Below are positions 5,294-44,730 of a stretch of 64,000 bases of DNA, piece after piece. The position numbers and the translations under genes are program-made. Within the stretch, counting starts at the first letter, position 1. Every line of letters starts with the position of its first letter. Source of the DNA: Haliscomenobacter hydrossis DSM 1100 (GTDB lineage: Bacteria > Bacteroidota > Bacteroidia > Chitinophagales > Saprospiraceae); the NCBI RefSeq assembly GCF_000212735.1, contig NC_015510.1, positions 1,302,001 to 1,366,000 on the forward strand, in the 5' to 3' direction. Below the pieces are notes generated by a model. That model had not been told where the DNA came from and ran no database searches. It saw nothing but the letters and a program-made list of their open reading frames with translations.

Positions 5294-5323
5294 GCGTAAT
5301 GTGAGTTAATAAAGTTTCAGCAC

Positions 5324-27413: not shown

Positions 27414-29966
27414 TTATTTAAAAACTTCAAATTTCTCACTGTATACCCCTTTGTTTGTGAACACCTTTGCCACATACATACCTTCAGACCAATGGCTTAC
27501 CCCAATTTCGGCATAGGGATTACCATCGCCGAGGGTATTGTACACCATTTGCCCAAGTGCATTAAAAACTTGCAAGCGCTGAATACTCGCATCGTTTTTC
27601 CCCAAATCCAAACGCACCATATTGGAAGCGGGGTTGGGGAACAAACGTACGGATGGCAACTTCTGCTCCAAGGGGCGACCCAAGTTGGGTGTAGAAGGTT
27701 TATTGCTCTTTTTGAATTTAAATTCAAAGGGTGCTACACGGATACCAAAAGTTTGGCCGGAACTGGAAACGCCAGTACCTGTGCCGCCAGGGAACTTGAT
27801 GATGGTTTCTTGTTCTTCGTCGGCATCAGGGACTTCCAAGCCTTCAATGGCATCGATCACCACTCCTTTTCCTTTCCCGATTCGACCGTAACCACTCACC
27901 GCCAATTTGTTGGTACGCGTAAAAGCCATTTCCAACAATCCCTTTTGGTCATCACGCGTCATGGCCAATACTGGAGAGTTGTACCCCAACCAGCTGTCGT
28001 CGCTAAGCGCAATGCTGAAAGACTGTGGTTTAAACAACTTGGCGTTGTATGGCAAAGCAAAGGTGAAACCATATAAATCAATCACTGGGCTCTTTTGATC
28101 CCCAATGACCAAATCAAATTCGAAAGGTTTGCCCGGCTCCAGTTCCTGATCTGATACAATTTTGATTTCGTAGTTGTAAAAAGGAATGGGCGTAGGCACA
28201 AAAGAGTGGGTATTCCCATAAAATTTGCTGATGGCCAGCGTATCGCGATCCATGATCAGGCTATCGCCGTCCGTATCCAGGTGTTTAAGATCGTAGTTGG
28301 TCACGTAAGGATTGTCCCAGTTGCTGCTGTGTTGGCCGTACCATTCCTCCAGCGAAACTTCTCCACGTGGTACGCCAACTTCCCCCATGTGCAAGCCCAG
28401 GGGCAATAGATCATTCATGTCTACAATTCCATCCTGGTTGGTATCACCCGCCCAAACACAATCTTCGATACAAGAAGGCAACACCGGGTGTCCAACGTCG
28501 AGCACATCGACCTCGACCTTGATGCTTTTGCGGTTTTTGCAATCTTTGCTGTCGGCCATACACAAAGTGACCTCGAATGCGTCTGGCCCGGTATATCCAA
28601 GGTTAGGAATGTACACCAGCAGGTTTGACCCCTGAAGTAAGCGCCCAGAAATGACTTGATTCACCAATCCGGGATAAAATACCACTTTACCTTGTTTGGC
28701 TTGAGCCACAATGTTGAAGGAATAAGTTTCAATGGGTACATTGTAGGCAATGACCAAAGGTGTAGACTTGGCGGTACTCATCAAAAACTTGGCATAAGCG
28801 GGTTCGTAATTGCTTACGTAAACATACACCGTGGCCACTTCAGCAACGCCACCACAACCGGGAGGGAAACTGCGGTAAGTGAACTGATCAACTCCGATGA
28901 AGCCCGTAGGTGCCTTATAGGTAAAAATTCCTTTATTGCGTGAATCGTAGCTTACCTGGCCATATTTGGGTTGTGAATAATCAATACATCCAGCACCGTA
29001 CACAAACCCATCGTTTTGCAATACATCCACCTCCACGTTTTTTCCGGGTAGCACGTCTGCTCGGTCATCTACTGCAAATTTATTGCGCACATGATCCAGT
29101 ACCTCAATTTGGGCAACGATCTTTGCATTGCCATCTTCAAAGGTCAAATAATCCGACCCTTTAAATCCTGGATTGGGGGTATACACTGGTACGTCTAAAT
29201 CTCCATTAAAAAATCCACTTTGTGGTTGCTCTACCAATCCATAAACCACCGGAATAAGGATGGGTGCACTTTCATTTTTGAGGGTAAAAATCTTTACGGT
29301 ATCCGGTTTTGAGCGGTCATTGCGGTCAACAAAAATACTTACCGAAGTTTGGTCACAAGAACCGACCTTGTCACAAACCGTATAAATCAGTTTAGCAGTT
29401 CCTGAGAACCCTGCTTTTGCCTGAAACTCAATATTGGGATCCCCCTTGGTGATTTTGGCAGTTCCATTGTTGATGGTGGATACACTTACGATCTCTAATC
29501 CACCTAAATTTGAAATATCATTGGTCAGTACATTTAACTTGACAGGCGTCGCGGATGAAGGTACATAATACAAATCGGGATAGGCATCAACTTTGGACAA
29601 CTTGACGGTTACGGCTACGGTAACTTCTTTAAAACAGCTGTTGCCAGTAATACAGGTCCGGACGGCGTAAACGAAAGTATCCAAACCAATGTACCCCGCT
29701 TGTGGTTCATAAACCAAGGTGTATATTCTGGTGTTGCTGGAACCATTGACGGTCATTGAAGGATCGAGATAGGCCTTTCCGTGCTTGGGTTGAACAAAGA
29801 CACCTGTACTCATCACCCCTTCAAAAATGACTTTTGATGGTGTATCTTTCAAGGTTACCAACGAATCGATTTGCTTGATTTGCGCGGGTAAAAGCAAGGG
29901 GACTAATAGAAATAAGAATACCCTAAATAGGGCATGTAACACAGTTTTTGGTACAAATACATTCAT
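27414..29966 (-). CDS. Secreted multidomain protein with dockerin-like and cohesin-like modules and T9SS sorting domain
   Basis: 850 aa. Signal peptide (ALFRVFLFLLVPLLLPAQ), then several Ig/cadherin-type beta modules to ~490. A dockerin-like pair of calcium loops follows: GDTNQDGIVDMNDLLPLG (~504) and DTDGDSLIMDRDTLAISKF (~565). Next is a cohesin-like beta region (~600-745, LYGFTFALPYNAKLFKP, DSWLG), and finally a type A T9SS sorting domain (~765-850: LFPNPASNMVRLDL, GMYVAKV). It should be exported by type IX secretion and kept at the surface. It is divergent from the helical-protein gene at 30183, and this arrangement is repeated by the paralogues at 41055 and 42694. Confidence 0.85.
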   Translation of the reverse strand: MNVFVPKTVLHALFRVFLFLLVPLLLPAQIKQIDSLVTLKDTPSKVIFEGVMSTGVFVQPKHGKAYLDPSMTVNGSSNTRIYTLVYEPQAGYIGLDTFVYAVRTCITGNSCFKEVTVAVTVKLSKVDAYPDLYYVPSSATPVKLNVLTNDISNLGGLEIVSVSTINNGTAKITKGDPNIEFQAKAGFSGTAKLIYTVCDKVGSCDQTSVSIFVDRNDRSKPDTVKIFTLKNESAPILIPVVYGLVEQPQSGFFNGDLDVPVYTPNPGFKGSDYLTFEDGNAKIVAQIEVLDHVRNKFAVDDRADVLPGKNVEVDVLQNDGFVYGAGCIDYSQPKYGQVSYDSRNKGIFTYKAPTGFIGVDQFTYRSFPPGCGGVAEVATVYVYVSNYEPAYAKFLMSTAKSTPLVIAYNVPIETYSFNIVAQAKQGKVVFYPGLVNQVISGRLLQGSNLLVYIPNLGYTGPDAFEVTLCMADSKDCKNRKSIKVEVDVLDVGHPVLPSCIEDCVWAGDTNQDGIVDMNDLLPLGLHMGEVGVPRGEVSLEEWYGQHSSNWDNPYVTNYDLKHLDTDGDSLIMDRDTLAISKFYGNTHSFVPTPIPFYNYEIKIVSDQELEPGKPFEFDLVIGDQKSPVIDLYGFTFALPYNAKLFKPQSFSIALSDDSWLGYNSPVLAMTRDDQKGLLEMAFTRTNKLAVSGYGRIGKGKGVVIDAIEGLEVPDADEEQETIIKFPGGTGTGVSSSGQTFGIRVAPFEFKFKKSNKPSTPNLGRPLEQKLPSVRLFPNPASNMVRLDLGKNDASIQRLQVFNALGQMVYNTLGDGNPYAEIGVSHWSEGMYVAKVFTNKGVYSEKFEVFK

Positions 29967-30182
29967 GGTTTCGTGGATTTACATCATTGCTAAAAAAACG
30001 CGACACAATACTTTGGGGCTAAGATACAACTCTCCTATTGAATTGTCTAAAAAATGTAAGGGGAAAAAAAAGAAAAGTTTCCTTAATTTTCACCCCTAAA
30101 TGAAACGGGTCAAAAACCATTCCATTTTTGTTCAGGGCCCAAATCAAATCGATCAATAATCCCGAAAATACAATGTTAAGAA

Positions 30183-31604
30183 ATGCGAAATTTTAAACTT
30201 TTCCAAATACTTTCTCAGTTTGACAAGTTAGAACAAAACCGCATCCGCAAGTTTATCAGCTCTCCCTATTTCAATAAAGACAAAGTTGTTTTAGCCTTAT
30301 TTGAATTGGTCGTTGATGAAATCAATGCCGGTTCCCAGGGTGAATGGCCCAAAGAACGCATCTGGGATAAATTAGCCACCGAACTTCCTTTTGACGATAC
30401 CCGCCTGAGAAAGTATCAGTCCGATTTGCTAAAATTGATCGAGCAGTTTCTCATTCAGCAGGAATTTGAGGCCGACACCTTTGCTTCTCAAGCTTATTTG
30501 CTGCGTTCTATCAAAAAGAAAAAACTCCGAAAACTGCACAATTCCACCCTTAAAACGGTAAAAGAAATTCCTGAAAAGACCCCCCATCGGGATGGAAATT
30601 ATTATTTAGGCCAATTTTTAGTGGAAACCTCTTACGACCAATTGATCAGTGATTTTGAGGAAAAAAAGACCGAAAAAACCAACCTGGAAGAGATGTCCAA
30701 ACTATTGGATTACTTTTATATTGGCGAAAAATTAAAAATTTATTGTGAAGTTCTGTCCAGAAAAAAATTCGCAAAACATGAATATGATATCTCGCTAATT
30801 GACGAAATATTAAGTTTTGCTGAACGTTTTGAATATCAAGAAATTCCATTTATAGCAATATATTATCAAATTTTCAAGATGTATGTCGAACCTCAAGAGG
30901 TTAATCATTATTATAAATTTCAAAATCTGTTATCAGAATCCTCTCATTTTTTTCCCAGTAGTCAAGAAAAGGTATTTTATGATTTTGCCCAGAACTATTG
31001 TATCAACCAACTAAACCAAGGCAACAGTCTTTTTCTTAAAGAATTATTCGGGGTATACAAGGATGTAATCGCAAAAGGTTTTTTCACCATTGAAGGAAGG
31101 ATGGAATCTTTGGAATTCCGTAATATTGTGGTAGTTGGATTAAGAATGGGCGAATATGAATGGACCGAAAATTTCATTAATAATTATATAAAACTTTTGC
31201 CTACTGAAATAAGAGAAAATACCCGATCATTTAATTTGTCCCAGTTGTACTTTTATCAAAAAAAATATTCAAATGTGATCCGCATTCTTCAAGAAGTAGA
31301 ATACAACGACTACATCACGAACCTGAACGCGAAAACCACCCTTTTGATGACTTATTATGAAGTTGGTGAGATAGATCCCCTTTTTAACCTGTTGGAAAGT
31401 TTCAGAGTATACCTGAACAGGAACAAAGAAATCCCGAGCGCTCGAAAAATCAATTATAAAAATTTGATTAAATTCACGAAGAGATTAATTAGCCTCCCTC
31501 CTTCTGATACTAAACTCTTAACGGTAATCAAAGAGGAGGTTATGTCAACCAAGAACATCCCTTCTCGCGACTGGCTACTCGAAAAAATTGCCGAACTGGA
31601 ATAA
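30183..31604 (+). CDS. Large helical (TPR-like) cytoplasmic protein, paralogue A
   Basis: 473 aa with no signal peptide or membrane span. Almost entirely helical, with TPR-like pairs. A distinctive N-terminal region (KFISSPYFNKDKVVLALFEL, ~24; FDDTRLRKYQSDLLKLIEQF, ~75) and a C-terminal block (FRNIVVVGLRMGEYEWTENF, ~318; YNDYITNLNAKTTLLMTYYE, ~380) recur in the protein at 41055-42491. That makes the two a paralogous family which I cannot name. It is divergent from a dockerin/T9SS protein gene, 216 bp away; its relative faces the other dockerin/T9SS gene. A chaperone, adaptor or regulatory role for the secreted partner is inference. It converges on the EEP-hydrolase gene with 3 bp between. Confidence 0.7.
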   Translation: MRNFKLFQILSQFDKLEQNRIRKFISSPYFNKDKVVLALFELVVDEINAGSQGEWPKERIWDKLATELPFDDTRLRKYQSDLLKLIEQFLIQQEFEADTFASQAYLLRSIKKKKLRKLHNSTLKTVKEIPEKTPHRDGNYYLGQFLVETSYDQLISDFEEKKTEKTNLEEMSKLLDYFYIGEKLKIYCEVLSRKKFAKHEYDISLIDEILSFAERFEYQEIPFIAIYYQIFKMYVEPQEVNHYYKFQNLLSESSHFFPSSQEKVFYDFAQNYCINQLNQGNSLFLKELFGVYKDVIAKGFFTIEGRMESLEFRNIVVVGLRMGEYEWTENFINNYIKLLPTEIRENTRSFNLSQLYFYQKKYSNVIRILQEVEYNDYITNLNAKTTLLMTYYEVGEIDPLFNLLESFRVYLNRNKEIPSARKINYKNLIKFTKRLISLPPSDTKLLTVIKEEVMSTKNIPSRDWLLEKIAELE

Positions 31605-31607
31605 ACC

Positions 31608-32693
31608 CTACGGTACCAATTCCACTTCCATCCACACTGCCTGGTGATCCGAAAACCGAAATTCCTGGCTGATGCCTTTCACTTTGCGCACTTTTACATT
31701 CGGCGAAACCAAAAAATAATCGATCAGCGTCACAAAGGTTTTTTTGGCCTGGTAGGGCTGGTCATTGTTGCGGTTAGTTGGCACAGTTGGGTCATAAATC
31801 CAGTGCCAGTCCGCCGGGAAAAGTGCCGGGTTCATGTTCTGCCCTTCCTCCCCTTTTGGGGCCTTTCCCTTCATAAATACATCATGGGGCAAAAATGGCG
31901 GGCAGGTATTCCAGTCTCCTCCAGCAATCACAAAATTGCCTTTTTGGTATTCTGCTAGAGCCAGATCGCGCAAAAACTCCTCCTGTTGGCGTTTGATCCC
32001 CCCTTTGTCAAAAGCTTCATTGTGGATGTTGATGACTACTAAATCTTTGCCGAATCGGGTTTTGTAGCGGGTGAACCCCAAACAGCGATCCAGCATAAAC
32101 AGGCGTTTGGGCCAGCCAAATTTTCCGGGCAATTGCAAACGTTTGCTTTCCGTAGGTTCAAATTTTGCATAAGTGGCCAGTCCGCTGTTGACGGCACCAT
32201 AGGCATTCCAGGGTTCCAATAGTGGAAGCGGTACCCGCTTGGCGCGGTAATTGGGGAAGTACGCCGCAAAGAAATCTGGGACTTTTTGTTGCATGGCTGT
32301 AAACTGGTTCAGGTAATAACTCCGCTTTGAGGCGTAGTCAACTTCCTGAAACAGGTAAAAATCGGCCTGGTAAAGATTGACCGCCGCAGTAGTACCCGCA
32401 AAGTATTGCTCAACCAGCGGCTTGGGTGGCCGCACCATTCGGCCTCGTGAGGTAAAAAAACCACCGCCTTGGTAAAAAAAATCGGCCTCAGCACCGAGTC
32501 CAGCGTACCCCAGGTTCCAGATCATCAAAGAGATTACGCTGTCTTTCAGCGTTTTTTCACGCGCATGTGCGGCAATTTCAGCGGGTAAAACACTCGGCGG
32601 CTGATAATCGGTGAACGTGCCGTAAAGGAGCACGCCAAAGAAGTAAACCAAAAAAAGTAAAGGCAGTAGCCAAAGCAGGCGTAGCTTTTTCAT
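31608..32693 (-). CDS. Membrane-anchored endonuclease/exonuclease/phosphatase-family hydrolase
   Basis: 361 aa from the ATG at 32693 (MKKLRLLWLLPLLFLVYFFG, one N-terminal membrane helix). The EEP fold follows: SLMIWNLGYAGLG at the first strand (~50), FLFQEVDY with the metal-binding Glu (~115), VVINIHNEAFDKGG (~215), FVIAGGDWNTCPPF with D-x-N (~255), and YFLVSPN ... SDHQAVWMEVEL at the end. The residues for a DNase I-like phosphoesterase are intact; exported members act on nucleic acids, sphingomyelin or inositol phosphates, and the substrate here is unknown. It is not obviously in an operon. An inverted repeat separates it from dapB. Confidence 0.88.
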   Translation of the reverse strand: MKKLRLLWLLPLLFLVYFFGVLLYGTFTDYQPPSVLPAEIAAHAREKTLKDSVISLMIWNLGYAGLGAEADFFYQGGGFFTSRGRMVRPPKPLVEQYFAGTTAAVNLYQADFYLFQEVDYASKRSYYLNQFTAMQQKVPDFFAAYFPNYRAKRVPLPLLEPWNAYGAVNSGLATYAKFEPTESKRLQLPGKFGWPKRLFMLDRCLGFTRYKTRFGKDLVVINIHNEAFDKGGIKRQQEEFLRDLALAEYQKGNFVIAGGDWNTCPPFLPHDVFMKGKAPKGEEGQNMNPALFPADWHWIYDPTVPTNRNNDQPYQAKKTFVTLIDYFLVSPNVKVRKVKGISQEFRFSDHQAVWMEVELVP

Positions 32694-32728
32694 GTTCGTT
32701 TTTTTACCCACGAATAAATTCAGATATC

Positions 32729-33010
32729 GGGGCTGTCTCGTAATTAAAGTTAAGGGTATCTTTAGGTTTGAGGCAGTTTCTGCTCCTTAAAGTACTGACA
32801 ACCAATCTAAAATACCCTTTCGGAAAGTTTCAGACTTTCCGAAAGTTCTTCAACGTAGCATCTCTGGCGCATCTAAACATGGTGCAAACTCGAACTTTTC
32901 GAAAGTCTTGAAACTTCCGAAAAGGAATCTTAGTATTTACGATTATTCAAAGCACTGGTAATCAAGATGAATAAAGGCTGATACATAAATTTAATTGTGA
33001 GACAGTCCCC
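32729..33010. repeat. Nested inverted repeat between dapB and the EEP gene
   Basis: Outer arms ~32729-32748 (GGGGCTGTCTCG) and 32990-33010 (GTGAGACAGTCCCC) are complementary and end exactly at the dapB stop codon. An inner pair, 32821-32848 with 32892-32919 (CGGAAAGTTT type), is about 85% complementary. AAGGGTATCTTTAG and CTAAAATACCCTT form a third, looser pair. No gene is seen in 32694-33010. Confidence 0.82.
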
Positions 33011-33727
33011 TTAGAATCCCAACAGATCAGACATCGTAAACACCCCCTTCTTACCCACCAGCCAAACCGCCGCCTGTACCGCTCCACTCGCAAATCCCTC
33101 CCGGGAATGGGCAGTATGCCGGATTTCAATGGAATCAATTGCTGATTCATAGTACACCTCATGTGTGCCCGGAGCTGGATCAACCCGGTGTGACAGGATG
33201 CTCAACTCGTCTGCTTTTGCATCCGACTGGTTGACCCATTTGGTTTTTCGCCCCAATTGTTCCAAAATTCCTTCCGCCAGGGTGATGGCTGTACCACTGG
33301 GCGCGTCCAGTTTTTGGGTGTGGTGGGTTTCGGACATCCGTACTTCGTACTGTTTATGCCCATTCATCATTTGGGCCAAAAAGCGATTGACCGCAAAAAA
33401 AACATTGACACCAATGCTGTAATTTGAAGAATAGAACAAGGCTCCCTGGTGCTGGGCACACAAGTCTTTTGCTTCTTCGAGGCGATGAAGCCAACCCGTG
33501 GTGCCTACAACCACGGGGGTTCCCGCTTCGAGACATTTCTGCAAATTTTCGAATGCCGTTTCCGGGCGGGTAAATTCAATGGCAACATCGGCCTTTTGCA
33601 GGTTTTCAGCGGTAAAATCCGCAATGTTGTTCACATCGATGCGGAGCACTACTTCATGGCCATTTTGCTGGGCAATTTGCTCGATGGCTTTGCCCATTTT
33701 TCCATAGCCAATTAATGCAATTTTCAT
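33011..33727 (-). CDS. dapB: 4-hydroxy-tetrahydrodipicolinate reductase
   Basis: 238 aa. DapB (EC 1.17.1.8) reduces the dihydrodipicolinate precursor in lysine and meso-DAP synthesis using NAD(P)H. The N-terminal nucleotide fold has IALIGYGKMGKAIEQIA. The segment VVVGTTGWLHR (~72) and FYSSNYSIGVNVFF (~97) are conserved. The catalytic region is SETHHTQKLDAPSGTAITLA (~133), containing the H-H and K-x-D-A-P-S-G-T signature. The C-terminal HTAHSREGFASGAVQAAVWL is typical. The compact length matches Bacteroidota enzymes. The inverted repeat 32729-33010 begins directly at its stop codon. Confidence 0.96.
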   Translation of the reverse strand: MKIALIGYGKMGKAIEQIAQQNGHEVVLRIDVNNIADFTAENLQKADVAIEFTRPETAFENLQKCLEAGTPVVVGTTGWLHRLEEAKDLCAQHQGALFYSSNYSIGVNVFFAVNRFLAQMMNGHKQYEVRMSETHHTQKLDAPSGTAITLAEGILEQLGRKTKWVNQSDAKADELSILSHRVDPAPGTHEVYYESAIDSIEIRHTAHSREGFASGAVQAAVWLVGKKGVFTMSDLLGF

Positions 33728-33875
33728 GAAAAAAATTTTCTAAATGTGAGTGACTTTGTATGGAATGCTCGTCAAAATGGACAATATCCCAAAAACAAAC
33801 CAGAACTATATTTTGTGCCCTTTGTATGACCTAACCCGCACAGCTATACCTCCAAAAACTCCAAAAAACCAATCT

Positions 33876-33901
33876 GGGCAGTCTTTATGACTGCCCTTTT
33901 T
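33876..33901 (+). terminator. Terminator hairpin on the plus strand, without an obvious upstream gene
   Basis: GGGCAGTC, loop TTTAT, GACTGCCC, then TTTTT. The T-run is only on the plus strand, yet both neighbouring genes (dapB, mutS) are on the minus strand. It may end a short untranslated RNA from 33728-33875, or be a by-product of repeat DNA. Confidence 0.5.
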
Positions 33902-33902
33902 C

Positions 33903-34012
33903 GTACGGGCAACCCTGCGTGGTTGCCCAATCCCAGGGGCGACCACACAGGGATCGCCAGGGCGACCACACAGGGATCGCCTTGGGCAACCACACAGGGA
34001 TCGCCCCTACGA
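33903..34012. repeat. Tandem GGGCGACCACACAGGGATCGCC repeats
   Basis: About four copies of a 22-23-base unit (core GACCACACAGGGATCGCC). The first copy is variant and palindromic (GGGCAACCCTGCGTGGTTGCCC). The last copy runs into mutS and contributes its stop codon (TAG, complement of CTA at 34007-34009). No spacers of uniform length or unique sequence occur between units, so this is not a CRISPR array. Confidence 0.85.
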
Positions 34013-36625
34013 GATCATATGAATCAATTCGCGTAGTTTGAGCATACAATCGATTGGCGTCATGGTATTGAGGTCAACTTCTTGCAACAATTCTTTCAAT
34101 TTCCCTGCAACTGGATCTACCGTTTCAAAAATACTCAGCTGAATGGCATCGGTGTTGATCGCCTTGGTTTTGGCTTTTTCCACATTGGGGCCTTCGCCGA
34201 TACTTTCCTGAGCGATGGATTTCTGCTCCAGTTGTTCCAGGATATGGTTGGCGCGATCAACGATCATTTTTGGCATTCCTGCCATTTTCGCCACGTGAAT
34301 ACCAAAGCTGTGTTGGCTCCCCCCGGCGGTCAATTTGCGCAGGAAAATCACTTTTTGCCCCACTTCTTTCGTGGCCACGTGGTAGTTCTTGATGCGGGAG
34401 AATTTTTCCGACAACTCATTCAATTCATGGTAGTGGGTGGCGAACAGGGTTTTGGGGCGTGCAAAAGGGTTGTTGTGCAAATATTCGGCAATCGACCACG
34501 CAATCGAGATGCCGTCGTACGTGCTGGTACCCCGGCCAATTTCGTCCAGAAGGATCAGACTGCGGTCCGAGATGTTGTTCATGATGCTGGCCGTTTCGTT
34601 CATTTCTACCATGAACGTCGACTCGCCAGAAGAGATGTTGTCTGAAGCACCTACGCGGGTAAATACCTTGTCTAAAATCCCCAGGTGAGCCGATCGCGCG
34701 GGGACGTACGACCCCATTTGTGCCATCAGGCAGATGAGGGCCGTTTGCCGCAAGAGGGCAGATTTACCGGCCATGTTAGGACCCGTAATCATCAGGATTT
34801 GTTGGTGCTCATGATCCAGAAAAACATCATTGGGCACGTACATTTCACCCAGCGGTAGTTGCTGCTCGATCACCGGATGTCGCCCTTCACGGATGTCGAT
34901 TTCCAGTTCTTCGCTGAGTTGCGGGCGACAATACTGATGCCGGGTTGCCACTTTGGCAAAAGACAAAATGCAGTCCAAACGCGCCAAAAGAGTGGCATTG
35001 TGTTGCACCGGGTGGATGTAATCCGCCAGATCCAGCACCAACTCCTGAAACAGGCGCTCTTCCAAATCCAGAATCCGCTCTTCAGCACCCAGGATTTTGG
35101 CTTCCAGAACTTTGAGTTCTTCGGTGATAAACCGTTCGGCGTTGGCCAAGGTTTGTTTGCGGATCCATTCCGCTGGCGTTTGGTTCTTGTACTTGTTCGT
35201 CACTTCGAGGTAGTACCCAAATACACTATTGAAACCCACTTTGAGGCTGGGAATACCACTGCGTTCAACCTCCTTTTCCTGAATCCCCAACAGCAGTTCC
35301 TTGGCATGGTTAATGACGTGGCGCAACTCGTCCAGCTCGCTGGAAAAACCATCGGCAATGACCCCACCTTTGGCCAGGTTTACCGGAGGCTCCTCGACAA
35401 TCTGCTTGGCGATACGCTCCACCAGGCCGGGACAGGGATTGAGGCCATCGGCAATTTTTTCCAATTCCAGGTGTCCGGTACCAGCCAGCATTTCTTTCAG
35501 CGGTCCAACGGCGATAAGCGCCCTTTTGAGTTGAACCAGTTCACGAGGGTTTACTTTTCCCAGCGGCACCTTGGAAATCAAGCGCTCGAGGTCACCCATC
35601 AAGCGCAGGGATTTTTCTACTTCTCGTCCCTTGTCTTCGGTTTCCAAAAAATAGGCCACCATTTCCAGCCGGGAGTCAATGGCTAGCTTTGATTTCAAGG
35701 GTAAAACGATCCATTTTTTGAGCAAACGTGCGCCCATCGGCGAAACGGTCTGGTCCATGATTTTGAGCAAAGACACCCCGGTTTCGTGGGGGCTCGACAA
35801 AAGCTCCAAATTGCGGATGGTAAAGCGATCCAGCCACACGTAGCGATCCGGATAGATGCGCGTAATGGATGAGATGTGTTTGAGGTTTTTGTTTTCGGTG
35901 GTTTCGAGGTAGTGTAATGCAGCTCCGGCGGCAATTTGCCCCAATTCCATGTCTTCTACGCCAAAGCCCTTCAAGTTTTGCACGTCAAAGTGCTTGAGCA
36001 GTTTTTCGCGGCCATAATCGTAGGTAAAAACCCACTCGTCAAGGGTATAGAGGTAAAATTTTTCTCCAAAACGGCTTTCGAACTGTTTGCGGCGGTCTTT
36101 GGAAAAAATTATTTCAGAGGGGTTAAATCCTTGAAGCAGTTTATCGATGTAAGTCCAATCGCCTTCACTAACCAGAAATTCTCCCGTAGAAATGTCCAAA
36201 AATGCGATACCAAAATCGTCTTTGCGGCCAAAATAAAGTGAAGCCAAAAAGTTATTGGATTGGTGATCCAGCAATTTGTCGTCTACGGCCACCCCGGGTG
36301 TGATGACTTCGGTGACACCTCGGCGTACAATTTTTTTGAGCGGCGAAGGTTTTTCCAACTGTTCACAAATGGCCACCCGATATCCGGCTCTAACCAGGCG
36401 TGGCAGGTACAAATCCAGGGAATGAAAGGGAAAACCCGCCAGTTCAACGTCATTCCCTCCATTGTTGCGGCTGGTCAGTACAATGCCCAATACTTTTGAA
36501 GTGGTCACCGCATCCGTGCCAAAAGTTTCATAAAAGTCCCCTACCCTGAACAGCAAGATGGCATCGGGGTACTTTTTTTTCACTTTATTGTATTGCTCCA
36601 TCAAAGGAGTCACTTTTTCAGACAT
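34007..36625 (-). CDS. mutS: DNA mismatch repair protein MutS
   Basis: 872 aa from the ATG at 36625 (MSEKVTPLMEQYNKVKKKYP); upstream in-frame sequence back to a TTG is rejected. The mismatch-reading F-x-E motif is in LFRVGDFYETFG (~residue 35). Connector, lever and clamp domains follow, then the ATPase with Walker A GPNMAGKSALLRQTA (~612), Walker B SLILLDEIGRGTSTYDG (~690) and the signature segment SGESTFMVEM. The C-terminal helix-turn-helix dimerisation region is present. All motifs for mismatch binding and ATP-driven clamp formation are intact. The terminal residues and the stop codon fall in a tandem repeat. The ferredoxin gene is divergent 199 bp away. Confidence 0.97.
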   Translation of the reverse strand: MSEKVTPLMEQYNKVKKKYPDAILLFRVGDFYETFGTDAVTTSKVLGIVLTSRNNGGNDVELAGFPFHSLDLYLPRLVRAGYRVAICEQLEKPSPLKKIVRRGVTEVITPGVAVDDKLLDHQSNNFLASLYFGRKDDFGIAFLDISTGEFLVSEGDWTYIDKLLQGFNPSEIIFSKDRRKQFESRFGEKFYLYTLDEWVFTYDYGREKLLKHFDVQNLKGFGVEDMELGQIAAGAALHYLETTENKNLKHISSITRIYPDRYVWLDRFTIRNLELLSSPHETGVSLLKIMDQTVSPMGARLLKKWIVLPLKSKLAIDSRLEMVAYFLETEDKGREVEKSLRLMGDLERLISKVPLGKVNPRELVQLKRALIAVGPLKEMLAGTGHLELEKIADGLNPCPGLVERIAKQIVEEPPVNLAKGGVIADGFSSELDELRHVINHAKELLLGIQEKEVERSGIPSLKVGFNSVFGYYLEVTNKYKNQTPAEWIRKQTLANAERFITEELKVLEAKILGAEERILDLEERLFQELVLDLADYIHPVQHNATLLARLDCILSFAKVATRHQYCRPQLSEELEIDIREGRHPVIEQQLPLGEMYVPNDVFLDHEHQQILMITGPNMAGKSALLRQTALICLMAQMGSYVPARSAHLGILDKVFTRVGASDNISSGESTFMVEMNETASIMNNISDRSLILLDEIGRGTSTYDGISIAWSIAEYLHNNPFARPKTLFATHYHELNELSEKFSRIKNYHVATKEVGQKVIFLRKLTAGGSQHSFGIHVAKMAGMPKMIVDRANHILEQLEQKSIAQESIGEGPNVEKAKTKAINTDAIQLSIFETVDPVAGKLKELLQEVDLNTMTPIDCMLKLRELIHMIS

Positions 36626-37172: not shown

Positions 37173-37236
37173 ACAATACGTGCGATTGGGTATGTGGATG
37201 CTTTCTTCATACCCAATCGACCATTGTTCACTTTTC
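37171..37236 (+). terminator. Terminator of the ferredoxin gene
   Basis: CGATTGGGTATG (37183-37194) pairs perfectly with CATACCCAATCG (37208-37219), extended by GAACAAT/ATTGTTC (37171-37177 and 37223-37229). A T-rich tail (ACTTTTC) follows. It begins within the TGA stop of the ferredoxin. Confidence 0.8.
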
Positions 37237-37248
37237 ATCTTTACTCCG

Positions 37249-37356
37249 TTGGCCTTTAGAATATTCCCGTGGATGCTGTTTTGCTGCCTCTGCCCATTGG
37301 TTTGGGTAGCAGGTAAGAGTATTCCAAAAGCCAGTCCAACGGACCCCGGAGATTGA
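37249..37356 (+). pseudogene. Out-of-frame signal-peptide segment of the TPR histidine kinase
   Basis: Reading from TTG 37249 (or ATG 37273) gives LAFRIFPWMLFCCLCPLVWV then AGKSIPKASPTDPGD and stop. This is a good export leader directly before the kinase but in a different frame. Removing one C from the CCCC run at 37344-37347 joins it exactly to EIDSLLLLLPKSAPD of the kinase frame, so the two are most likely parts of one gene separated by a one-base insertion (real or a sequencing error). Confidence 0.5.
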
Positions 37357-37369
37357 CAGCCTGCTCCTC

Positions 37370-39202
37370 TTGCTTCCCAAGTCTGCTCCTGACTCCAATA
37401 AAGTACTCCTCTACAAAGAACTCTGCTGGCAATACCGCAACCAGGACATGTTCAGTGCCATTGACTATGGTCAAAAAGGGATTGCCTTGGCCAAAAAGCT
37501 CAATTTTAAAAAAGCGGAGGCAGAGATTTGCCGATTCATCGGACTGGCATACCGCCATTACTTTTTTTTCAGCGAATCGCTGGCCTGGTATTTCAGAGCG
37601 CTGGATTTGTCCACCCAAATCAATGACCAGGAGGGCGTTGCGTTTTGTTACGACAATTTAGGGGTAACCCGTTTCAATCAAAAACAGTTTGATGAAGCCC
37701 TGAGCTACTTTAAAAAAGGGGAAGCCATCTTTCAAAAACTGCAACATCAGGAAGGGCTAAGTTACGCGAATACCCATTTGTCCTGGGTATTTGCTGAAAA
37801 AAAGGAATTTGATACCGCGCTTGACTACGCCGAGCGATCTTTGATGATTCGCCGGCAAATTGGAGCCAACAAGGAACAAATCAGCAATGCGCTTCGCGAT
37901 GTAGCGGTAGCCCAGATTGGGTTGAGCCATTTTTTTAAGGCGGAGCAAGCCCTTTTAGAGGCGCTTAAAGTGGCCAAAGAAACCGGAAAACCAATTGTAG
38001 GTGCCGAATATGCCCTCTCTCTAGCGGAGCTATATCTCAAAAATCAAAACCTGAATCAGGCTGAGCATTATGCTTTGTGGAGTTACCAGCGCTCCGTACA
38101 GGTTCACAATCGCCTGCAAAAGATGAAATCCGCCGCTACCCTGTTCAAAATTTACCAACAAAAGCAGCAATACGATTTAGCCATCCAGTACCAAACTGAG
38201 CATTACAACCTGAAGGATAGCCTTTTTAACGAAGACATCAACAACAATACGGCCCGACTGGAGGCCAAATACCAATTCGACCTTAAAGAAAGGCAATTGC
38301 TGGAAGCCCAAAAACGCCAGGACATTGAAAACAAACGCAGCCTGGACCGGGAGCGTTTTTTGAGCTCTCTGCTGATCGCCGCCCTCTTGTTTGTAGGCAT
38401 CATGGCCTATTTCATCTACGAAAAGCGCAAACAGGATAAAATTGTTAACAAAGAACTGACTCAAAAAAACGAGGAAATCAGTCGGCAAAACCAGGAGATT
38501 CAGGAACAAACCGAGCAACTTGCCGAAAACAATCGCTTCAAGGATCGTTTGTTCTCCATCATTTCACACGATTTGCGCAGCCCGGTGGTGGGTTTGATTG
38601 GTAGTCTGGATCTGGTCAATGAAGGGCTTTTGACCGAGGCGGAGTTCCGCAATATGTTACCCGAATTGTCCCACAATGTCAACAGCATTCAAAGTTTATT
38701 GGATAACCTACTGGCCTGGGCCAGAAGCCAAATGAAGGGAATTGCCGTAGTGCCCGAGGCTTTTCACATTCGGGAATTGATGGGTGAAAAAATTGCCATT
38801 TTCCAAAAACAGGCACAGCTCAAAGGCATTTCGATCGTCAACAACATTGAAAGCGATCTTCAGTTTCTCGCCGATAAAAACATGATCAACCTGGTTGCCC
38901 TGAACCTCATTTCCAACGCCCTCAAGTTTTCCTTCCAGGGTGGAACCATCATCCTGAGCAGTTCCCGACACAAGGGATATTCGCAAATTTGTGTAGCGGA
39001 TACTGGAGTGGGGATTTCGCCCGAAAATCTGAAAAAATTATTTGGCGCTCACAGCATCTCATCCAAAGGGACTGCCGGCGAGATGGGTACGGGCCTGGGA
39101 CTCATGTTATCCAAAGAATTTATTGAAAAAAACGGCGGCACCATTTGGGTAGAGCGCAATCCGGAGGGCGGGAGTAAGTTTTGCTTTTCCATACCGGAGT
39201 AA
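37370..39202 (+). CDS. TPR-containing sensor histidine kinase
   Basis: 610 aa from a TTG start; the true N-terminus probably includes the leader at 37249-37356 once a one-base insertion is corrected. Tetratricopeptide repeats cover ~1-290 (e.g. AFCYDNLGVTRFNQKQFDEA, EGLSYANTHLSWVFAEKKEF). A coiled coil, one membrane span (FLSSLLIAALLFVGIMAYFI, ~330-350) and another coiled coil follow. The kinase core has the H box FSIISHDLRSPVVGL (~400), N box NLISNALKFSF (~512), G1 VADTGVGIS (~547) and G2 GTGLGLML (~578). The TPR part would be periplasmic and sense a protein or peptide. No response regulator is adjacent. The stop is followed directly by an inverted repeat. Confidence 0.9.
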   Translation: MLPKSAPDSNKVLLYKELCWQYRNQDMFSAIDYGQKGIALAKKLNFKKAEAEICRFIGLAYRHYFFFSESLAWYFRALDLSTQINDQEGVAFCYDNLGVTRFNQKQFDEALSYFKKGEAIFQKLQHQEGLSYANTHLSWVFAEKKEFDTALDYAERSLMIRRQIGANKEQISNALRDVAVAQIGLSHFFKAEQALLEALKVAKETGKPIVGAEYALSLAELYLKNQNLNQAEHYALWSYQRSVQVHNRLQKMKSAATLFKIYQQKQQYDLAIQYQTEHYNLKDSLFNEDINNNTARLEAKYQFDLKERQLLEAQKRQDIENKRSLDRERFLSSLLIAALLFVGIMAYFIYEKRKQDKIVNKELTQKNEEISRQNQEIQEQTEQLAENNRFKDRLFSIISHDLRSPVVGLIGSLDLVNEGLLTEAEFRNMLPELSHNVNSIQSLLDNLLAWARSQMKGIAVVPEAFHIRELMGEKIAIFQKQAQLKGISIVNNIESDLQFLADKNMINLVALNLISNALKFSFQGGTIILSSSRHKGYSQICVADTGVGISPENLKKLFGAHSISSKGTAGEMGTGLGLMLSKEFIEKNGGTIWVERNPEGGSKFCFSIPE

Positions 39203-39312
39203 GCGAAAAGCGAATAGCGAATAGCTAAAAACGAAAAGCGAAAAGCAGCAACCCGTTTGATCAGAGAATTGTGTGTTACTATTCGTTTTTCGCTTTTAGC
39301 TTTTAGCTTTAA
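39203..39312. repeat. GCGAAAAGC / GCTTTTAGC inverted repeat
   Basis: Left arm 39203-39246 is built of GCGAAAAGC-GAATAGC units and right arm 39280-39310 of the complement (CGTTTTTCGCTTTTAGC). It fills the whole gap between the convergent kinase and subtilase genes, touching both stop codons. Confidence 0.82.
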
Positions 39313-40856
39313 AGTCCCGTCACTGCTTTCCCTGCATCAATAATCCCGAACCCGTACTCGCTGCTGCGGGTCGTGGGCCAGGTGGCATTGGCTTTCATAC
39401 GGGCGTACACCTGTGCACGCGTTTGGGCGGGATTGGTCGCCCAAATCAGGGCAGCAATCCCGGCGGTAGTTGCGGTTGCTGCTGAAGACCCACCTACGTT
39501 GGCGGGTACATTGCCCGAAGGCGCGAGGGTGAGCGCAGTGCGGTTGTTGTCTACTTTGCGTTGCATCACCGCCACAAATTCTACATCGCTACCGCTGTGG
39601 CAAGTATTGCAACGTTCGAGTGGCAAACCTCCGTCTTTTACGCCAGTAACCGCGATACATTCGGCCATCCAGGCGGGGAAAATCACCCCGTACCAGTTGG
39701 TAATACTGGTTGAGGTACCAGCCGCAGCCAACAGCATTTTTCCCTTGCCGTAAGCATAACGCACTCCATCTTCAACTTGCCCGCTGGAAAAAATGTCTCC
39801 AATCGACATGCTGATGATCTTCACGCTGGTATTGTTGCCAGCAATCACGAGGCCATCGGCCAGTCCTTTCTTCTCGCTTGATGTGTTGACGATGACATCG
39901 CTGGTTACCCGAATACCCAGCAGGTTGCAGTTGTAAGCCACCCCAGCGGGAGTGCCATCGTTGCCCCGAGGTGCGGCAATCAGGCCCGCCATTTGGGTGC
40001 CGTGTCCGCACTGGTCATTGGGGCCATCCGGCGTACCGCAGAACCAGCAACTGACGTAAGTACCCGTACGTGTCAGGGTTCTCCCCGTGGAAAGGCCAGA
40101 ATTGAACTGGCTGCCCAACTTGGGTTGGCTGGTTGGATTGGGCGTGCCCGTATCCAGAAGGGCCACGGTGATGCCCCGCCCGGAGTTGTTGCCCCAGGCC
40201 GTACTAATTCGGGGTACCCCATGGTGCCAGGATTGTTTGGCAGCGGGTGTGATGTTGGTGTAATCAGCAGCAGGAATGCTGGCATTGCCCGTCACACTAC
40301 AACCAGAATCACTGCGCTGGCGCTCATCGTTGTAGCTGTATCCCATGGGTTCCACGTAGCGCACTTCGGGTAAACTGCGTAGTTTTTCAATGATGCCCAG
40401 ACTGCTCACTTTGATGTCGATGACGGGCAGCACGCTTTCTTCGCCAAAAGGCATCAGGTCTTTGGCCGTAAGGGTTTTGCCTGGATTTTGTCGATTGGTT
40501 TCGGCAACGATGTAGTTGATCAATGCTTCCCGTACCTGCTTCCATTCTTTTTGTTGGATATCGATTTCGTGCAGGCGTTGATTCAGGTTCTTTTCGTTGG
40601 CGGGTTGGTAGCCAATACACATGATGGAATCGCCGAGCAGGTTGGCGCTCCACACGGTTTGGGCATCCACCATGCGCCATTCAAATTTTTGGTGTTCGTT
40701 GAGCAAGCGCAGGGCTTGTTGGTTGATTTGGTCGCGGGTTTGGGGCTTGAGGCCCGGGTAGTGGTTGGTGGCTGCGTCGTCCAGGTTTAAGCCGTCTTTT
40801 CCACAGGAAAAAGCAAATACCAGTACAACCGTAAGTAAGGTAAGTTTACGCGTCAT
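39309..40856 (-). CDS. S8-family (subtilisin-like) serine peptidase, lipoprotein
   Basis: 515 aa. Lipoprotein signal (LTLLTVVLVFAFS then Cys18). An inhibitor-like propeptide (~90-170, VIDIKVSSLGIIEKL, SLPEVRYVEPM) precedes the catalytic domain. The triad is Asp in ITVALLDTG (~233), His in CGHGTQMAGLIAA (~285) and Ser in VGGSSAATATTAG (~455). The oxyanion Asn equivalent is probably replaced or shifted: the segment GKMLLAAAGTSTS stands where A-A-G-N is usual. No T9SS sorting domain is present, so anchoring would be through the lipid. The stop codon lies at the edge of an inverted repeat. Substrate unknown. Confidence 0.92.
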   Translation of the reverse strand: MTRKLTLLTVVLVFAFSCGKDGLNLDDAATNHYPGLKPQTRDQINQQALRLLNEHQKFEWRMVDAQTVWSANLLGDSIMCIGYQPANEKNLNQRLHEIDIQQKEWKQVREALINYIVAETNRQNPGKTLTAKDLMPFGEESVLPVIDIKVSSLGIIEKLRSLPEVRYVEPMGYSYNDERQRSDSGCSVTGNASIPAADYTNITPAAKQSWHHGVPRISTAWGNNSGRGITVALLDTGTPNPTSQPKLGSQFNSGLSTGRTLTRTGTYVSCWFCGTPDGPNDQCGHGTQMAGLIAAPRGNDGTPAGVAYNCNLLGIRVTSDVIVNTSSEKKGLADGLVIAGNNTSVKIISMSIGDIFSSGQVEDGVRYAYGKGKMLLAAAGTSTSITNWYGVIFPAWMAECIAVTGVKDGGLPLERCNTCHSGSDVEFVAVMQRKVDNNRTALTLAPSGNVPANVGGSSAATATTAGIAALIWATNPAQTRAQVYARMKANATWPTTRSSEYGFGIIDAGKAVTGL

Positions 40857-41054
40857 CTGAGCAGAGGTGTTTTAGAGCTTGTTAAAATGTTTGTTCCGGG
40901 ATAAAAATAGCGAATATTCGCAAAGCAGGGAAAGGAAAATTTAATTTTCAGGAAGAATAAGGGGATTTTCGCCAGGGGCTTCAATTCAGGGCAAACGCAT
41001 TAAAATTACACGGTCCAAAAGCCTCTTTAGGGGTCGGGAGTTCTAAGTGCTTGT

Positions 41055-42491
41055 TTAATGATTCAATTCCTCAATCATCTCCTCCAACCATTGCTTATTG
41101 GCCAAGGGGCTCATTTGGAGGTAGTCTTTTTTTAGTTTGTGGTAATGAGCCTTGGGTACCTGATAGAGGGATTGATGGATCATCACTTGGGTTAACTTTT
41201 GTAACAGGCTCAAAAAATGCAGGCTGGATTTCTTTTGGTAAGTAGACAATTGGCGATTGCGTTGCAAAAAACGCCGGGTCGTTTGGATCAAGGTCAGCAG
41301 GGCTTCTGTTTCACGAAGTACATAATAGATTTTTAATTGTATAAACTTGGCGGATAAATGATAAAATGAATCCGTAAACTCTACATTGTGTAGCATTCTT
41401 AATGCAGAGGCATAATCCTTTTTTTCAAAATGTAGATTCGCCAGGTTGTAAGTCACTACATTTGGGCGCACTTCCGGCAACAGAAAATGATTATTTTCCT
41501 GAATGAATTGTTCTGTCCATACGTAGTTTTTGGTTCGTATTCCTACCGTGATGATGTTGGTAAATGTCCATTGGGTGAGCAAATCGTTTTTGATTAGAAT
41601 GGATTTTTCTAGCAGAAAGCGGTACAGTTCGAACAACTCCTGGTAAAAATGATTGTCGCCAGAATTACTTTGCTGAACCGCGTAGTTGATCAGGTAGGTA
41701 TACAAATGCCTGAGTTCGTCAATGGGAATAAGCTCCAAGTGCAATTCTAGCTGAATTTTTAAATCTTGATACGCGGTTGAGTTTTCAGGAGCTGAAAAAA
41801 GTTGATACGCTGCATAATAAAGCTGGAAAGCTGGAAATTCACGGAAAGAGCTGGGGTTGTGGTGGTACCATTGAATAATTTCTTCCATGAATAGATTGTT
41901 ATACGTGGCATTCACCGCGTTGCTGCGGCTAGCCATATCACAAGCGATGCGCATTTTTTCGAGGTGATAATAACGATCTAGGGCATCATTGCGGAGCTGA
42001 AGATGTGGCGAATACCCTCGCTTGTTTTGAATTATTTTTTGTTGATCCTCAAGGTATTGGTATTGGCTCTCTGCTTGCCAATATTGCTGATCTTGCCAAG
42101 AGCTGGCTTGTAATATTTTTGCGAACTTGCCCAGTTGAGCGCTGCACGGGTCGAACCATTCCTGATCCAGTAGATAACGCACCAATAATTGTTTCTGCAT
42201 GGCAGGGCTGCGGTTCAAGCCAATCTGCGTCAAATAATTGTACCACAAATGCAGCAAGTCTGAAATCAAGTTGTCGTATTTGGCACCATTAAAAGGTTCA
42301 TCGCCAAAACATTCTTGGTAAGCCAGGTGCTTATCGATGCTTTTTGGCCCCTTGAGCTGCTTTTCTAATGCTCGAATTAAGCGCTGTAAATTGGGATTTT
42401 GGTTAAAAAAGGGGGAATCCACGAATTGGATGAAGGCTTTGCGCTCTTTTAGCGACGTTTTTTGATACATATCGAGGAATATGCCTTTCAT
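41055..42491 (-). CDS. Large helical (TPR-like) cytoplasmic protein, paralogue B
   Basis: 478 aa, no signal peptide, nearly all helical. It shares with the 30183-31604 product the N-terminal D-S-P-F-F-N and P-F-N-x-x-K motifs (FVDSPFFNQNPNLQRLIRAL) and the C-terminal blocks FTNIITVGIRTKNYVWTEQF, VVTYNLANLHFEKKDYASAL and TTRRFLQRNRQLSTYQKK, at equivalent positions and nearly equal length. The family is not recognised. Like paralogue A it is divergent from a gene for a dockerin-like T9SS protein (42694), with about 200 bp between starts. The surrounding composition is more A+T-rich than housekeeping genes. Confidence 0.7.
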   Translation of the reverse strand: MKGIFLDMYQKTSLKERKAFIQFVDSPFFNQNPNLQRLIRALEKQLKGPKSIDKHLAYQECFGDEPFNGAKYDNLISDLLHLWYNYLTQIGLNRSPAMQKQLLVRYLLDQEWFDPCSAQLGKFAKILQASSWQDQQYWQAESQYQYLEDQQKIIQNKRGYSPHLQLRNDALDRYYHLEKMRIACDMASRSNAVNATYNNLFMEEIIQWYHHNPSSFREFPAFQLYYAAYQLFSAPENSTAYQDLKIQLELHLELIPIDELRHLYTYLINYAVQQSNSGDNHFYQELFELYRFLLEKSILIKNDLLTQWTFTNIITVGIRTKNYVWTEQFIQENNHFLLPEVRPNVVTYNLANLHFEKKDYASALRMLHNVEFTDSFYHLSAKFIQLKIYYVLRETEALLTLIQTTRRFLQRNRQLSTYQKKSSLHFLSLLQKLTQVMIHQSLYQVPKAHYHKLKKDYLQMSPLANKQWLEEMIEELNH

Positions 42492-42693
42492 TTTTCTAGG
42501 TTTATTTCCATTAAACTATTGATAAATAGATTTTTGCAAAAATAATCATTTTTTTTCGAGCTAGAATAGAGAAATTAATGTCTTCGTTTGCCCAAGCGTA
42601 AGCCCATACTTTTGTATCATCAATAGGATCAAATCATAATTCGACCTTTTGATGACATATAATCCCATTTTATCATTACCAACGAAGTGTACA

Positions 42694-44730
42694 ATGAAAA
42701 AATTAGTTTTTCTACTAACAATTGCCTTGGTCATAGGACTCAACAGCCTTAGTGCCAAATACTTTCCCTCCTTTGTGATTGGCTCTAAGCACAAACACTC
42801 AGCACCAGCAGAGCATTCGATTGGGCTAAAAAAAGGCCAAACAAAACCGCCAGTCATTGATTGTGGATATACCTACACCATCATTTTTCCCAAAGACGCC
42901 AAAGTGGCTTCAACTCCAGCTTTGAAGGACACGGTGATGCTTACAAATTCTGACTGTTCACTCCTGGGCTTAAATTACCAGGATGAAGTGTTCAATTACA
43001 CTACAGATTCTGTGGTGGTACACCGTACTTATTTTATCATCAACTGGTTGGCTTACCAGGATGTTTGTGATGAGATCCCCGTATTTACCCACATTGATCG
43101 CGATCTGTGGGGTGTGGAAGGTCTAGCTGTGACGCAGGTAATGGTGGTGGATAATGACAAAGATCGTGATGAAGAGTTTTGGGTGTCTAAAGATGATACC
43201 ATCAACAATGCCGACGATTATTATTTTCCGGGAGATGCAGATTGGGGCGGACTGAGCCCTGCCGCCGGGATTACGAAACAGCCTGATCTTCTCAAATGCA
43301 ACACGGAGGGAGAATATTACCATGCCTTCTCGTATACCCAATTGATCTATGTAAAGACTTCCTATCCCCCAAGCCCGGTTTGTGTCAATGGATTAAGTGT
43401 AGCTTTGGCGCCCAATGGTCAAGGAGATGCTGCCATAAGCATTACTGCCGAGGACTTCGTTGCAGCAGACATTTATTCCCCTGATGGCCAAGGCCCGGAA
43501 ACTCAAAATGGACTAAAACGGATCAAACTGTACTCGATCAATCGGGTTGGAGAAGCCATCGACAAAAACCAAACTACCCTGACATTTAATTGTACCGACA
43601 AGGGTAAAACCATTGAGGTAGAGCTACACGCCTGGGATGTTTTAGGCAACCATGGCACTTGTGTTGCCCCCGTTGAAGTCCAGGATAAGCATAACTTGTG
43701 TACGGGAGTAACGTCGGTTTGGCCTGGTGATGCGGATCGCAATGGGGAGGTCAACCACAAGGATCTTTTTCCGATTGGTCTGGCTTACGGCAAATCTGGG
43801 CCAGCCCGAAAAACCCAGAGCTTGGAGTGGAAAGCCCAGGATGCACCATTGTGGGCTGTCAATCTACCCCAAAGGCCAGTTGATCTGTCGAATGTTGATA
43901 CTGATGGCAATGGGCAAATCAATGCTTTGGATACCAGCGCTTTGGCCGCAAACTGGAGGAAAAAACATGCCGATGGCATACCCAAGGTGCTGGAGGCTGA
44001 AATTCGGGAGGAAGGGGTTAATCTGTTTTTGCAGGGAGATACCCTTTATACCGGGCCAGGCCAATGGCTGCCAGTTGTACTGGGTTCCAATGAACAATTG
44101 GCAGAAAATGTTTACGGGGTTGCTTTTACGATTGCCTATGATCCAGCTCAAATCAAGGAGCATGAGCTGAGCTTTTTTACTAAAAATTCCTGGTTGGGTA
44201 CACAAGGGGAAGACTTATTGGTTTTTCAACACAAAGATCCAACTTTGGGCAAGTTAGATGTCGCTTTGGTAAGAATGGATGGTCGGAATCGCAGCGGACA
44301 AGGGGTGATTGGCAAAGTCAAAGTCACCATTGAAGACCTTGTATTCAATTTACGCGAAGGCACTAATGGTAAGCTAAAATTTGAAATTCAAGACGTACAA
44401 CTTATCTCGAACACCTATGCAAGTATTCCAATCAATCCCTTGAACAGCCCCATTGTTGTGAAAAACAGTGTGATATCTAAAATCCATGATCGGCAGATCG
44501 CGCATCAAGTTCGACTTTTTCCTCAGCCCGCCAGTCATCAGCTTTTTGTTGACTATGGAAGCCTCCAAGTTCAGGGTTTTCAATTGCTCCAACAGGATGG
44601 CCGAGCGCTGACTCCGGTTTTGAGCCCTACCCGGCAGTTGGATCTTCAGGGAATTCCCGGAGGGATCATCTTCCTGAGAATCTTGACGGATAAAGGAGTA
44701 GGCCTTAAAAAGATACTGATCACCAAATAA
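42694..44730 (+). CDS. Secreted dockerin-like/cohesin-like protein with T9SS sorting domain
   Basis: 678 aa from the ATG at 42694 (KKLVFLLTIALVIGLNSLSA signal). Beta-rich N-terminal half (~50-335). A dockerin-like calcium-loop pair: GDADRNGEVNHKDLFPIG (~345) and DTDGNGQINALDTSALAANW (~400), separated by a ~40-residue spacer. A cohesin-like region follows (~430-570, VYGVAFTIAYDPAQIKEHEL, KNSWLG). It ends in a T9SS sorting domain (~600-678, VRLFPQPASHQLFVDY). It has the same module order as the 27414-29966 protein, of which it is a shorter paralogue. It is divergent from helical paralogue B. Surface location by type IX secretion is inferred. Confidence 0.85.
   Translation: MKKLVFLLTIALVIGLNSLSAKYFPSFVIGSKHKHSAPAEHSIGLKKGQTKPPVIDCGYTYTIIFPKDAKVASTPALKDTVMLTNSDCSLLGLNYQDEVFNYTTDSVVVHRTYFIINWLAYQDVCDEIPVFTHIDRDLWGVEGLAVTQVMVVDNDKDRDEEFWVSKDDTINNADDYYFPGDADWGGLSPAAGITKQPDLLKCNTEGEYYHAFSYTQLIYVKTSYPPSPVCVNGLSVALAPNGQGDAAISITAEDFVAADIYSPDGQGPETQNGLKRIKLYSINRVGEAIDKNQTTLTFNCTDKGKTIEVELHAWDVLGNHGTCVAPVEVQDKHNLCTGVTSVWPGDADRNGEVNHKDLFPIGLAYGKSGPARKTQSLEWKAQDAPLWAVNLPQRPVDLSNVDTDGNGQINALDTSALAANWRKKHADGIPKVLEAEIREEGVNLFLQGDTLYTGPGQWLPVVLGSNEQLAENVYGVAFTIAYDPAQIKEHELSFFTKNSWLGTQGEDLLVFQHKDPTLGKLDVALVRMDGRNRSGQGVIGKVKVTIEDLVFNLREGTNGKLKFEIQDVQLISNTYASIPINPLNSPIVVKNSVISKIHDRQIAHQVRLFPQPASHQLFVDYGSLQVQGFQLLQQDGRALTPVLSPTRQLDLQGIPGGIIFLRILTDKGVGLKKILITK

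Follow-up and report, generated by a model that had tools for sequence, protein, structure and literature searches.

Does a large helical protein that is encoded back to back with a secreted surface protein form a functional unit with it, and, if so, what might the former do for the latter? The question is raised by two gene pairs in a 64,000-nucleotide stretch of the Haliscomenobacter hydrossis DSM 1100 genome (hereafter, the window). According to the list of open reading frames (ORFs), the first pair comprises an 850-aa secreted protein (partner 1; 27414..29966, minus strand) and a 473-aa protein (helical protein 1; 30183..31604, plus strand). In the second, a 478-aa paralogue of helical protein 1, identified as such by sequence searches (helical protein 2; 41055..42491, minus strand), faces a 678-aa secreted protein (partner 2; 42694..44730, plus strand). 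Both pairs are divergent, as the original prediction had it, and the start-to-start distances that it gave were confirmed: the shared intergenic regions span 216 bp (29967..30182) and 202 bp (42492..42693), respectively.

The pairs had further been described as duplicated and as paralogous in both members. Paralogy indeed extends over nearly the whole length of the two helical proteins (25% identity, E=5e-44), but it is limited to the C-terminal part of the secreted proteins (27% identity, E=3e-23). The idea of a duplicated pair was not borne out. The helical proteins in the window belong to a set of nine family members in this genome (the same nine are retrieved with either as the query), and they fall into different clades; the nearest paralogue of helical protein 2 (56% identical) lies 2.8 Mb away, where it is itself part of a divergent pair with a T9SS-type gene. 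A local duplication of one pair is thus ruled out. Directly downstream of the gene for helical protein 2, on the same strand, is a gene for a Subtilase-family protein (Pfam Peptidase_S8; 39309-40856, minus strand). A TPR-containing histidine kinase is encoded at 37370-39199 (plus strand); its best NCBIfam match, FimS (E=4.8e-68), is far under the cut-off of that model.

How consistently are such genes paired? In H. hydrossis, seven of the nine helical genes have a divergent 5' neighbor with a T9SS-type tail. Six of these tails exceed the TIGR04183 cut-off, and the seventh, that of partner 2, is recognized by alignment only. The remaining two genes are L016, which is divergent from a SusC-like receptor (judged by eye), and L011, whose 5' neighbor is on the same strand. 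Because T9SS tails are common in this genome (at least 150 over the TIGR04183 cut-off among 250 candidates, of which 150 were scored), the 3' side of the helical genes was used as a control. Among 124 distinct members (127 were taken from the fetched loci), 84 had a divergent 5' neighbor with a T9SS tail; on the 3' side, 13 of 122 neighbors carried such a tail and a further 3 were cut. Tails were detected at E<=0.01 with a profile that was built from a 25-row module alignment, including some of the tested partners, and ORFs in the fetched loci were called by a longest-ORF script, such that start codons are uncertain. The rest of the 124 consist of 24 members with a divergent neighbor and no detected tail, 5 whose divergent neighbor was cut by the locus end, 9 with a same-strand 5' neighbor, and 2 with no 5' neighbor. 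Sorted by clade, these 40 are the 14 members of an unpaired clade and 26 others (5 cut, 2 at a locus end). Loci L047-L106 were chosen by score and contig position among the matches listed in a 199-genome scan, and L108-L159 were chosen for not being module-paired (see below); 35 of the 51 distinct members in the latter set still face a T9SS-tailed protein, vs. 49 of 73 for all others.

Orthologues of the first pair gave a similar picture. These loci were the best 80 of 453 relatives from titled genome contigs, many of them labeled Saprospiraceae, and their helical proteins are 38-75% identical to helical protein 1. A divergent, module-bearing partner was present in 69 of the 76 loci with an upstream ORF (3 of these 69 partners are cut by a contig end); the other seven comprised three partners cut before the module, two without it, and two short same-strand ORFs. 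Among 17 helical ORFs from other bacterial families, 7 had a divergent neighbor that looked T9SS-like by eye. At four loci from another family (L251, L252, L254, and L256), helical genes occur in tandem, also beside small ORFs of ~111 aa that appear fibronectin-like by eye.

The genome-wide search that the original prediction had proposed, of the helical family and its neighbors, thus revealed no random placement relative to dockerin/T9SS genes, and the proposal that conserved divergent pairing marks a functional unit is strongly supported. This linkage is genuine and ancient, and it mostly involves T9SS-type partners. It is not strict, given the unpaired clade and the 26 other members with no detected T9SS 5' neighbor. 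The conservation and frequent recurrence of the pairing make it probable that the helical protein controls its surface partner or serves it in some other way.

The helical family is widespread close to home. Of 199 genomes from the window's bacterial family, the Saprospiraceae, 195 matched its profile (few candidates, mostly eight or fewer, were scored per genome). Across the phylum, 13 of 395 genomes did so (mostly four or fewer candidates each), of which six belong to the Saprospiraceae and seven to four other families. The ten genomes that were counted more fully contained as many as 26 copies per genome. A tree of 73 members has clades that match the types of partner, and all 14 members of one clade, including L011 of this genome, are without a T9SS partner. 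No Pfam or NCBIfam family describes these proteins, and NCBIfam yielded no match to them at E<=0.001. A family that has no model in either collection is thus found in nearly all of the Saprospiraceae genomes searched, and it is linked to one of the major classes of surface protein.

What do the partners have in common? Proteins of 360 to 1830 aa share ~340 C-terminal residues, ahead of which lies a variable part of 20 to 1500 residues (40 pairs). Partner 1 contains three Big_9 Ig-like stretches, an extended dockerin-like region, a cohesin-like domain, and a T9SS type A tail; the last three constitute its 348-aa constant module (27417..28460, minus strand), which was defined by alignments, a predicted model, and Foldseek matches to cohesins. 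The corresponding module of partner 2 (43714..44727, plus strand) was defined by alignment, and this protein scores 374 bits against the module profile, in which it is itself a row. Two calcium loops, a cohesin-like region, and a T9SS tail had been predicted for both secreted proteins. The loops are visible by eye, and the cohesin-like region was upheld by a fold search with the predicted model; the tails differ in their support. That of partner 1 exceeds the Pfam (Por_Secre_tail, in addition to Big_9) and NCBIfam (TIGR04183) cut-offs, whereas that of partner 2 has no Pfam or NCBIfam match at E<=1 and was identified by alignment to its relatives. The Dockerin_1 match of partner 2 is also below the Pfam cut-off (E=0.0096).

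Among 25 modules that were compared to Pfam (E<=0.01), 24 matched Por_Secre_tail, as expected of T9SS type A cargo, 11 matched Dockerin_1, and 3 matched Cohesin. Type I dockerins have two EF-hand-like calcium loops in about 60 residues; in the module, the two loops are separated by ~45 residues, a spacer longer than is usual for dockerins. The predicted model of the module (pLDDT 88.1, pTM 0.67) had as its top Foldseek match the cohesin construct 2w1n, and TM-scores normalized to the target were 0.76 for 6kgf_C, 0.74 for 2vo8, and 0.70 for 2xdh; other beta-sandwich proteins (pilins, transglutaminases) are also among the matches. The model thus supports a cohesin fold in the module, for which dockerin binding is a putative activity. 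A two-loop dockerin-like region and a cohesin fold are likewise found in cellulosomal and non-cellulosomal cohesin-dockerin proteins, e.g. the Archaeoglobus cohesin 2xdh, but the module unites both in one protein, with its long loop spacer, ahead of a T9SS tail. Such a portable module may serve to join variable surface domains together.

The module and the helical gene often travel together. Five of the six full modules in this genome are paired with a helical gene, as are 42 of 58 in eleven genomes, where 42 of 142 helical genes are module-paired (both gene lists were compiled from search listings, and all module rows above 150 bits were taken). Distances between helical proteins and between modules are strongly correlated (Mantel r 0.87, reached by 0 of 2000 permutations), and nearest neighbors agree in 25 of 40 cases; common species history contributes to this correlation. 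The original prediction had paired the helical gene with a dockerin/T9SS protein, and only the second half of that description proved general. In clade B, a large clade, the partners that were read are about 1000 aa long and have a T9SS tail and no module (two that were scanned carry DUF11 and DUF7619); the dockerin is ruled out as the common feature, and the T9SS tail therefore takes that place. Other domains differ among the six partners scanned. The partners are putative exported T9SS cargo, a prediction that draws on hydrophobic N-termini seen by eye. They differ from familiar T9SS type A cargo in having a dedicated, divergently encoded companion that is predicted to be cytoplasmic. We know of no such companion for T9SS cargo, and a search of the literature on Haliscomenobacter/Saprospiraceae, T9SS, and cohesin-dockerin systems, mostly outside subscription journals, showed no such pair among the papers listed.

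The companion itself is predicted to be a TPR-like solenoid. An AlphaFold2 model of helical protein 1 made with 74 sequences is all-alpha (pLDDT 89.4, pTM 0.79), and its presumed cytoplasmic location is a prediction from the lack of a signal peptide visible by eye. No Pfam family is general to the helical proteins: TPR_1 matched 10 of 74 members at E<=0.01, and Pfam PPR matched none of them at that threshold. A profile search of PDB sequences aligned positions 330-370 with engineered consensus TPR chains (E=1.5e-10). Foldseek found no match at E<=0.001 in the PDB or in a viral fold library; the best PDB matches, all with E > 0.001, prominently feature TPR and PPR solenoids and include the regulator NprR, a Rap phosphatase, and RNA-binding designer PPR proteins. 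The fold matches are weak and generic for solenoids. Neither Pfam nor NCBIfam recognized a helix-turn-helix (HTH) family at the thresholds used, nor a DNA- or RNA-binding domain general to the family.

Shared promoter motifs had been suggested as a check on the pairing. Conserved elements are present in the intergenic regions, but the words differ between clades A and B. Directly before the start codon of partner 1, the intergenic sequence reads TAGCAATGA..AATCCACGAAACC (29967..29992, minus strand), a conserved leader. The 80 orthologous loci include near-copies, and their 70 intergenic regions were reduced to 60 by de-replication. In these clade A loci (orthologous to helical protein 1), the word AATCCACGA occurs in 25 of 60 (the exact word is missing from the other 35) and, in 24 of the 25, it sits 2-5 nt before an ATG. 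In some of them, the called partner ORF begins upstream of AATCCACGA, which could therefore be coding there. An enrichment analysis of 8-mers in clade A found TCGTGGAT in 25 of 70 loci, vs. 0.1 expected. The clade-specificity of other words is pronounced: TTTCACAA occurs in 31/60 clade A loci vs. 0/26 in clade B, and TCAACAAA in 0/60 vs. 24/26. Motif likelihoods exceeded those of shuffled sequences in both clades (A, 223 vs. 82-98; B, 231 vs. 66-75). The clade A figures exclude helical coding sequence, since the coding start dominated otherwise, and the best motif in this clade merges the word TTTCACAA with a second one, AATCCACGAA. For clade B, counts refer to 26 of 30 loci, L275 being without a family ORF and L272, L278, and L281 having overlapping or wrong neighbors.

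In 14 of the 26 clade B loci, CAACAA occurs at least twice, with one copy no more than 50 nt from the helical start; in this clade, several called partner starts lie around or upstream of the conserved element. The clade B pair is the only place in the H. hydrossis genome where a composite clade B pattern occurs, and the reversed control of this pattern does not occur. TCAACAA can be dismissed as an operator for all of clade B, as it was found in only 4 of 21 rows from further loci (two loci are counted twice in these rows). TCAACAA and AATCCACGA are both absent from groups C, D, and E, in whose loci (6, 7, and 13, respectively) TTTCACAA turned up once.

Promoter-like sites were also sought in these regions. 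One source (PMC6847099) describes a -33/-7 promoter consensus for Bacteroidetes that includes TAnnTTTG, and presents the phylum as being without Shine-Dalgarno sequences. A candidate -7 element, TACTTTTG (42607..42614, plus strand), matches TAnnTTTG exactly and faces partner 2; it is a single, uncontrolled match found by eye. On the helical side, TTG..TAnnTTT[GA] sites exceed their shuffled means in clade A (15/60 vs. 3.5) and in clade B (13/26 vs. 1.3). Sites facing the partner are in modest excess in clade A (11/60, vs. a mean of 4.0 and a maximum of 8 in shuffles). For clade B, a strict TTG..TAnnTTTG promoter directed at the partner was rejected (0/26, vs. a mean of 0.8 in shuffles).

How might the helical protein serve its partner? 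The original prediction had suggested a dedicated regulator, chaperone or sensor. Of these, the group-specific intergenic elements favor a regulator, and our leading reading, held tentatively at somewhat less than an even chance, is that the helical protein is a trans-acting regulator of the divergently encoded T9SS neighbor. In each pair, a surface-protein gene would then have a regulator of its own encoded next to it. This cytoplasmic TPR-like solenoid would control synthesis of the partner by binding DNA or RNA, either in the shared promoter region or near the start codon in the 5' leader of the partner. It would probably also control its own gene. The cis-elements differ between groups that have diverged since their duplication, which could allow many surface proteins to be switched independently. 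From the conserved elements, we infer the helical protein as their reader; the sign of the control and the signal that the protein would read are likewise parts of the model that we infer. Local control of partner synthesis explains most of the observations: the divergent layout, the start-codon-proximal element, and the group-specific elements. The broader version, in which each group of a solenoid regulator family acts through its own element on the leader or promoter of single surface-protein genes to form a many-channel T9SS switchboard, seems doubtful to us at present. If the helical protein is a regulator, it would help to explain how individual T9SS cargo genes come to be controlled.

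The proposed arrangement has partial precedents. Divergent regulator-target pairs, such as those of LysR-type regulators, have back-to-back genes and a short intergenic region with conserved elements, and the helical/T9SS pairs are alike in both respects. They differ in that no helix-turn-helix or other family of DNA-binding proteins was recognized in the helical protein, a T9SS surface protein would be the target, and the pair occurs many times per genome. With RRNPP-type proteins (NprR, Rap), the helical protein shares a predicted all-helical, TPR-like superhelix and weak fold matches, but it has no recognized N-terminal HTH, and the fold E-values are above 0.001. PPR/TPR RNA-binding solenoids offer another comparison: the family has weak fold and profile matches to designer PPR proteins, and a putative RNA-binding activity would fit with the conserved leader that lies at the start codon of the partner, but Pfam recognizes no PPR repeats. 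Were the start-codon-proximal element read as RNA, this would amount to PPR-like, sequence-specific translational control in bacteria.

A different service is conceivable. As a dedicated cytoplasmic chaperone or export escort, the solenoid would bind the fresh partner and keep it unfolded, or time its entry into Sec, before T9SS export. TPR-like solenoids often bind proteins, the pairing is one-to-one with large, multi-domain clients, the helical protein and the module diverge together, and no nucleic-acid-binding domain general to the family was recognized. However, the T9SS tail alone is general among the paired proteins, and the part before the module varies in length and domains, so there is no obvious common client surface; moreover, the genes are divergent and not co-transcribed, and the conserved word beside the partner start codon would be left unexplained. 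We consider this role unlikely. A toxin-immunity relationship was dropped on general grounds, with the constant part being C-terminal and the layout divergent.

The elements conserved at orthologous loci could instead be read by an unlinked factor. The pairs would then have only a back-to-back promoter region in common, with the helical protein having some other cytoplasmic job, e.g. as a signaling scaffold. Any regulator could read the intergenic elements, the helical-side promoter-like sites do exceed shuffles, and an unpaired clade exists. On the other hand, one common regulator does not predict cis-elements that differ between clades A and B, and the pairs diverge as units; this explanation strikes us as rather improbable. 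That the pairs persist merely because duplications copy both genes, with no functional tie, is very improbable. Linkage alone would produce correlated divergence, but the orthologous pairs remain adjacent in 69 of 76 loci despite helical identities of 38-75%, T9SS-looking divergent neighbors occur in other bacterial families as well (7 of 17 ORFs, by eye), and T9SS tails are far rarer on the 3' side.

Genes without a companion were scrutinized on both sides of the pairing. One module-bearing T9SS protein of this genome (L107 5949-8387; C1, about 5.54 Mb) is without a helical companion. A decayed helical gene beside this orphan module gene was rejected, as tblastn with family members from 11 loci as queries gave no match under E=0.09. 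For the unpaired helical clade, a hidden small divergent gene, tRNA, or Rfam RNA on the upstream side was likewise rejected: no consistent small ORF was apparent by eye, and no tRNA was found in the 14 loci. The only Rfam match in nine of these loci was a cobalamin riboswitch lying elsewhere (L011 3471-3697); it precedes an ORF (3727-5802), TonB receptor-like by eye, that adjoins the unpaired helical gene. The upstream regions of this clade (e.g. L011, L071, L074, and L077) have, by eye, a promoter-like stretch with AGTACA that recurs among them, along with words resembling ACAAAAGT, which suggests a second, outward-facing promoter, with no recognized gene, upstream of the unpaired helical start.
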